Shown here: piece by piece, positions 46,278 to 46,347 of the stretch
How the letters are laid out: every line of letters starts with the position of its first letter
How positions within the stretch are numbered: position 1 is the stretch's first letter
Source of the DNA: Herbiconiux moechotypicola
Lineage (GTDB): Bacteria > Actinomycetota > Actinomycetes > Actinomycetales > Microbacteriaceae
NCBI RefSeq assembly: GCF_024979255.1
Contig: NZ_JANLCN010000003.1
Location: 1-64,000 of the forward strand
Direction of reading: 5' to 3'
Length of the DNA stretch: 64,000 nucleotides
Notes under the pieces: generated by a model
The model's database searches: none
Seen by the model: only the letters and a program-made list of their open reading frames with translations
What the model was told of the DNA's origin: nothing
Position numbers and translations under genes: made by a program

Positions 46278-46322
46278 AAAAAAAGGACCCGAAGGCGCCG
46301 CGAGTGCGATGCGTTCGGATCC
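46278..46322 (-). terminator. Intrinsic terminator in the PTS operon leader
   Basis: Minus strand: GGATCCGAA (46322-46314) pairs with TTCGGGTCC (46293-46285), one G/T wobble, directly followed by seven T residues (46284-46278). It stands 31 bp before the PTS start codon. Its 5' arm shares GGATCC with the RAT element, so the two structures exclude each other. Confidence 0.85.
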
Positions 46323-46347
46323 TGCCTGCCTGACCAGTTACATGTCC
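46317..46347 (-). promoter_or_regulatory. RAT (ribonucleic antiterminator) site for the BglG/LicT-type protein
   Basis: Minus strand from 46347: GGACATGTAACTGG, then TCAGGCAGGCAGGATCC. The pattern follows the BglG-family RAT consensus (GG..TGT.ACTG....GCAGGCA...CC). Its last bases GGATCC are the first bases of the terminator at 46278-46322. Binding of the antiterminator encoded at 41939 would prevent terminator folding when beta-glucoside is transported. Confidence 0.85.

Follow-up and report, generated by a model that had tools for sequence, protein, structure and literature searches.

Genes and features of the locus

Within a 64,000-nucleotide stretch of DNA from Herbiconiux moechotypicola (hereafter the window), the minus strand carries a beta-glucoside PTS operon preceded by a short leader, whose coordinates, 46278-46347, are exact. 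The first gene is bglP-like (44255..46246, minus strand); its product has Pfam EIIB, EIIC and EIIA domains, as expected of a beta-glucoside PTS EIIBCA, and scores 634.3 bits against TIGR01995 (cut-off 614.7), and its ATG has AGGGAGG upstream. Its end is overlapped by the start of a GH1 gene (42796..44268, minus strand) resembling a 6-phospho-beta-glucosidase, the best NCBIfam models for the product being 6-phospho-beta-glucosidases at scores under their cut-offs. Last in the operon, and joined to the GH1 gene by an ATGA overlap, comes a licT-like antiterminator gene with a CAT domain and two PRDs (41939..42799, minus strand), which bears out the claim of an earlier, sequence-only reading that a BglG/LicT-type gene sits in the same operon. 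On the other side of the leader a gene for a Gfo/Idh/MocA-type oxidoreductase begins at 46409 and runs divergently on the plus strand. Further along, a catabolic-looking cluster (48003-53985, minus strand) encodes a UPF0261 two-domain protein, a DeoR-family regulator, an old-yellow-enzyme/pyridine-nucleotide oxidoreductase and a Gfo/Idh/MocA dehydrogenase, and is adjoined by an SDR-like ORF named by eye.

The antiterminator matches PF03123 in its CAT domain with 59.8 bits (cut-off 25) and PF00874 in its PRDs with 100.7 bits over two stretches (cut-off 23). Both marks of the BglG/LicT family are present: the protein has a CAT domain followed by two PRDs, and the operon leader has a RAT overlapping an intrinsic terminator. 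The family's four PRD histidines are there too, in SLTDH, FHLVN, AHLQY and ALHVAR, aligned with those of 1tlv/LicT; we take them to be phosphorylation sites. Against the equivalog model for LicT proper (NCBIfam NF046042) the protein scores 260.5 bits, below the cut-off of 300. Judged by its domain content, the system is a member of the BglG/LicT antiterminator family and would work like it, while falling outside LicT proper by the NCBI cut-off.

A leader with two exclusive structures

The leader can form either of two structures, which compete for six bases. The RAT (46317..46347, minus strand) is a 31-nt element that reads, from 46347 to 46317, GGACATGTAACTGGTCAGGCAGGCAGGATCC; it belongs to a variant class, GGACAUGUAACUGGUCAGGCAGGCAGGAUCC, by its sequence, its fit to the class pattern and the paired changes seen in an alignment. 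The intrinsic terminator (46278..46322, minus strand) has a stem of 46322-46314 with 46293-46285, the latter arm reading TTCGGGTCC, enclosing an inner hairpin and followed by exactly seven Ts at 46284-46278. The switch point is GGATCC (46317..46322, minus strand), which closes the 3' arm of the RAT and opens the 5' arm of the terminator; that the last six bases of the RAT are the first arm of a terminator with seven Ts, as the sequence-only reading had it, is thus correct to the base.

Taken alone, the terminator has a folding energy of -23.7 kcal/mol (z = -4.8), a stability that none of 200 shuffles equals. RAT and terminator together (69 nt) give z = -2.9, with 2 of 200 shuffles equally stable, and the 103-nt leader gives z = -1.5, with 14 of 200. 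In a window of 71% GC, the T-run of the terminator is the sole run of at least six Ts on either strand, and the RAT pattern, allowed up to three mismatches, has a single match in the 4.28-Mb genome (reversed control, none). Terminator stability, sole T-run and single genome match together make the leader observation exact and far above chance. A terminator-scanning tool run over the window did not return the 46278-46322 terminator, probably because its scan admits loops of 3-8 bases only.

The isolated RAT is weak, at -3.7 kcal/mol for the proposed pairs, and for a 32-nt stretch lacking its first base 193 of 200 shuffles fold equally well or better. Such a weak fold is expected of, and agrees with, a RAT held by protein, which is some way from proof. 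Eight nucleotides ahead of the RAT lies a candidate extended -10 element, TGtTAGGGT (46356..46364, minus strand), which would place the transcript start at the RAT or just before it. It is weak relative to consensus: a good -35 element was not found, and a sigma-70 scan of the window gave no match at the candidate promoter. Several leaders of related actinobacterial loci also have, as judged by eye, a box resembling TGnTAnnnT 6-8 nt ahead of the RAT, which points to a transcript that begins with the RAT.

A variant class of RAT

The consensus of the window and its relatives is RGRCAUGUnACUGGUnnnGCAGGCAGGAYCY, 31 nt with small variations. We take the canonical LicT/BglG RAT to be GGAUUGUUACUG..CAGGCAAAACC, or more fully GGATTGTTACTG-N-CAGGC(A/G)A(A/G)ACC. 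The form with N6 and CAGGCAAAACC has no match in the window at up to three mismatches, and canonical identity was rejected on that ground. A canonical form for C. acetobutylicum is printed in PMC12628678. The sequence-only reading had described a RAT-like sequence, well preserved; well conserved it is, but as a member of a different class and not of the enteric or Bacillus LicT type, to which it has no match within three mismatches.

Each distinct RAT among 76 copies was entered once in an alignment of 26 rows. Nine pairs (1-31, 2-30, 3-29, 4-27, 6-25, 7-24, 11-22, 12-21 and 13-20) are formed in 97.9% of the 234 cells; four of the nine are invariant, and at 1-31, 3-29 and 12-21 both sides change across the alignment. 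The outermost pair, 1-31, is broken in 4 of the 26 sequences and 6-25 in one. The covariation score is 0.155, compared with 0.095 in shuffles, none of 500 reaching it, and with a maximum of 0.068 in slid controls; the doubly changed cells exceed every one of the 500 shuffles and every slid control. Of five covariation measures, two did not pass beyond the shuffles, namely pairs with a double change (8 of 500 as high) and further pair types (199 of 500). The internal loop holds the pair C4-G27, A5 facing G26, and A28 on its own; the apical GGU...G is conserved though unnecessary for pairing. Relative to the canonical fold, each arm of the class RAT is one base longer, the basal stem is lengthened to three pairs and the internal loop is remodelled. 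In all 76 leaders, the window's included, a hairpin opens in the RAT 3' arm and ends at most 6 nt from a run of at least four Ts.

Distribution of the class

Related loci were the best 80 of 113 that encode relatives of the window's antiterminator, chosen by similarity to that protein. The window's sequence supports the switch proposed in the sequence-only reading, a RAT and terminator ahead of a beta-glucoside PTS gene, with the antiterminator gene closing the operon, and 75 of these 80 loci share the arrangement, with the class RAT and a downstream T-run. The antiterminator gene follows the RAT at a distance of 3.4-3.7 kb, and the window and the same 75 loci combine a CAUG..CAGGA RAT with an N-[S/T/Y]-S CAT. 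The five loci without the RAT are L021, where the CAT end lies off the contig; L037, with only ~2.2 kb of upstream sequence; L048 and L063, where the RAT is changed; and L079, with the CAT triplet NSN and another gene order, where no RAT was seen. Hosts of the class are Microbacteriaceae and Micropruina on the one hand and, on the other, Bacillota: Clostridium, C. difficile, Faecalibacterium, Lachnospiraceae, Paenibacillus, Bacillus, Enterococcus and others. Being common to many Bacillota, the class is no actinobacterial oddity.

A sample of 249 genomes of the window's family was searched separately for the RAT and for the protein. With at most one mismatch allowed, the RAT pattern was found 13 times, in 12 genomes, and CAT domains were found 30 times, in 18 genomes. 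Each of the 13 RATs is followed, 3.5-3.7 kb downstream on the same strand, by a CAT with the sequence VLNSSVV, and the other 17 CAT places all lack the class RAT at that threshold. At eight of the 17, every one an NNN protein with GRG, a canonical RAT follows the start of the CAT by ~0.9 kb; at the remaining nine, which include three NNN/GRG proteins (L154-L156), no canonical RAT was found. A phylum-wide draw of 396 genomes yielded the pattern (at most one mismatch) in one, Herbiconiux moechotypicola itself, which makes the class rare in the phylum as sampled. Genes with CAT domains are patchy, in 6 of 16 genomes of the genus and 18 of 249 of the family, a pattern suggesting that such operons have been gained and lost. 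No relative was found among viral contigs, and the 286 plasmid records are all below 60% identity.

Eight other CAT loci had no match to the class RAT pattern at up to three mismatches, and a terminator scan of them returned hairpins at L157 and L160 without a RAT-like sequence, as judged by eye. A third RAT-like leader, GGATGTTATTCAC...GTGTGAAGCAGGACC, was seen in one of the eight, L161 (~2446-2530, reverse complement), where it overlaps a terminator before an ORF with an EIIB motif; the CAT of that locus reads GNN (row L140). Four loci of the same genus and family (L157, L158, L163 and L164) have CAT-PRD genes reading NNS or NNN, followed by an ORF with an EIIB motif, and in the 12 kb scanned no terminator overlapped by a RAT was found at them.

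Matching of RAT and antiterminator

The CAT domain of the window's protein reads VLNSSVV...GKGIGY, that of LicT VINNNVI...GRGLAF. The two align without gaps (LicT as in 1L1C), N9-N10 of LicT being replaced by S-S, R27 by K, A30 by G and F31 by Y, among others. Position 27 reportedly matters for LicT specificity, and the substituted CAT positions are said to touch RNA, according to work by Huebner in 2011 and Yang in 2002. A review (PMC7430163) states that LicT makes contact with two bulges and with the stem that separates them, and that specificity domains have been identified in SacT, SacY and LicT.

CAT triplet and RAT type go together in the wider set. All 76 class-RAT loci read N-[S/T/Y]-S (three are NTS, two NYS and the rest NSS), and NNN is found in all 22 canonical-RAT rows and in both GlcT-type rows, some of these rows holding the same gene twice. 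Two simpler markers were rejected: lysine 27 is no strict one, as class loci L003 and L058 have R27 and canonical locus L111 has K27, some class loci also differing beside position 27 (QKG in L025, for example); and Ser10 alone is none either, as the NNS proteins L083, L084, L087, L130, L132 and L148 lack a class RAT in the DNA examined, which for L084 is 3 kb.

Couples of both kinds can live side by side. In two Microbacterium loci a canonical and a variant RAT stand in adjoining divergent operons with one antiterminator per kind, at 4417 (minus) and 5502 (plus), ~1.1 kb apart, in L012 and at 2317 (minus) and 5501 (plus) in L009. Class and canonical couples also coexist in three genomes of the family sample (G487, G584 and G659), each keeping its own sequence.

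An antiterminator tree was built from 120 of 146 CAT rows, 26 being left out as duplicates or unneeded. All N-[S/T/Y]-S proteins fall in one clade of 80 rows with support of 100/100, in a bootstrap not quite settled, and L079 (NSN) stands at its base. Nested within, beside two clostridial class members (98/95), are the proteins of Enterococcus hulanensis and E. raffinosus (L048 and L063), which have the same operon and a CAT reading NAN. Their leader reads AGGCATGTAACTGTA...TACAGGCATAACC, and the changed RAT, ...CAGGCATAACC, lies at 5585-5619 on the plus strand of L048 and equally of L063. From this nesting, the protein triplet and the loop of the RAT both seem to have altered on a single branch, and the two loci seem to be a natural co-switch of RAT and CAT. 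The enterococcal change counts as one event, to which the origin of the class adds a second; as the loci are related and were chosen by similarity, the RAT/CAT match rests on few independent events.

On these comparisons the couple of CAUG...CAGGA RAT and N-[S/T/Y]-S CAT is a distinct putative recognition class, apart from LicT/BglG. A bolder proposal, to which we give even odds, is that it is one of several orthogonal codes. CAT residues 9-10, and perhaps 27, would read RAT nucleotides 4-5 and 26-28; the L012 couples would stand ~1 kb apart without cross-talk; and the enterococci would have re-switched on a single branch, SS becoming AN as RAT ...GGCAGGAYC became ...GGCAUAACC.

Proposed mechanism and alternatives

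What is observed here comprises two exclusive structures, the operon, the domains of its proteins, covariation in the RAT and the matching of RAT types to CAT types. We put at about 90% the probability that a protein controls transcription termination at this leader, by protein-dependent antitermination. RNA polymerase would begin at the RAT or just before it. Without inducer, EIIBCA would phosphorylate the antiterminator PRDs and so inactivate the protein, leaving GGAUCC free to pair into the terminator and transcription to stop at the U-run. With a beta-glucoside present, the EII phosphate would go to the sugar and the antiterminator would dimerise; its CAT domains would then clamp the RAT hairpin and keep GGAUCC within it, blocking the terminator and allowing readthrough into the genes for EIIBCA, 6-phospho-beta-glucosidase and the antiterminator itself. 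Experiments on relatives support the mechanism, for C. acetobutylicum BglG and its RAT (PMC12628678), S. mutans LicT (PMC1489936) and E. faecalis NagY (PMC9981650).

The leader might instead be an ordinary LicT/BglG RAT, its differences mere drift, its specificity the same and canonical LicT-type proteins binding it equally well. Both kinds share the upper half, GUnACUG...CAGGCA, and, as the NSS proteins make up a single clade, common descent by itself could account for a good part of the agreement between RAT and CAT. The covariance model for the class, built from the 26 distinct RATs with the window's row included, reaches 27.1 bits on the canonical RAT of L101, its highest canonical score, and partial matches on others; it gives the window's RAT 50.2 bits and class members 50-55, partly by construction, and 13.1 bits to the changed enterococcal RATs. 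Drift with unchanged specificity also sits poorly with the absence of the class RAT (at most one mismatch) from every one of the remaining 17 CAT places of the family sample, with couples that stay distinct within the same genomes (L009, L012, G487, G584 and G659) and with the joint alteration of RAT and CAT in two enterococcal leaders. We consider this explanation unlikely, if the most serious of the alternatives.

Far less probable is a metabolite-binding or other RNA switch in place of a protein-bound RAT. Conservation of the leader, its mutually exclusive structures and a conserved apical GGU...G that pairing does not need would suit one, but the element is 31 nt long and unstable alone, and a CAT-domain gene lies 3.4-3.7 kb downstream in 76 of 76 leaders, as it does downstream of all 13 RATs found without using the protein. 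An Rfam search of the window returned nothing, even at E 10, and a small-molecule switch was rejected on this and on the CAT gene downstream of each leader found. Scarcely credible, finally, is the reading that there is no regulated leader here, only a plain terminator for transcripts arriving from upstream, or noise in transcription. The terminator is strong enough for the part; the upstream neighbour is divergent (46409, plus strand), so that no upstream gene on the minus strand ends at it, and the overlap of RAT and terminator is conserved, as is its place in the operon, in two phyla. Divergent gene and conserved overlap led us to reject it. Under protein-dependent antitermination, high-GC actinobacteria would gain a defined, probably inducible RNA switch, and a RAT/CAT class that crosses phyla, with canonical couples in some of the same genomes and a nested re-switch, would offer ready matched and mismatched pairs for working out which residue reads which base.

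Comparison with known systems

Antitermination as such is not new to actinobacteria. C. glutamicum R reportedly has beta-glucoside PTS operons with antiterminator genes, in the order EII, glucosidase, antiterminator (attributed to Tanaka et al. 2011, J Bacteriol 193:349, cited in PMC11477304); these resemble the window's operon in being actinobacterial beta-glucoside PTS operons of the same gene order, and stand as prior art. Gordon et al., cited in PMC12502629, are said to have made RAT searches in 2015. We recognised no description of the RAT class in the open literature, and its letters were not among the matches listed; it may already be in print, for instance in subscription papers such as these two. 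The way in which similar antiterminators within one cell escape cross-talk has been studied, chiefly in B. subtilis (PMC7430163).

Rfam RF03530 (bglG-cis-reg) is alike in being a bglG/licT operon leader of Bacillota with a RAT. Its 137-position model has no match in the window or genome; among 18 loci it found 5 of 12 with a canonical RAT (27.7-41.9 bits, gathering threshold 80) and none of 6 with a variant RAT, and as it misses 7 of the 12 its silence here is weak evidence.

Closer are the GlcT-type (glucose PTS) and NagY-type (N-acetylglucosamine PTS) RATs of L090, L104 and L113, names assigned by similarity. Like the class they have CGUG or CAUG on the 5' side and CAUGA or CAUGG on the 3' side, sharing the CA-N-G start of the latter, and their CATs also read GKG. 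They are unlike it in the CAT triplet, NNN (L090, L104) or NQN (L113), and in nucleotide 26, U there and G here. The L113 RAT is identical to the NagY RAT printed in PMC12502629.

With B. subtilis LicT and the BglG of E. coli and C. acetobutylicum the system shares a CAT domain with PRD1 and PRD2, a beta-glucoside EII, a phospho-beta-glucosidase, a RAT 3' arm overlapping the terminator 5' arm, and the CUG/CAG upper stem and GGCA of the RAT. It differs in the lower half of the RAT (RGRCAUG...CAGGAYCY, against GGAUUG...CAAAACC, with one extra base per arm), in the CAT (N-S-S and GKG, against N-N-N and GRG) and in the place of the antiterminator gene, last in the operon here and first in E. coli and C. 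acetobutylicum. The mechanism is a known one; what appears distinct is the RAT/CAT class, with a function predicted from its relatives.
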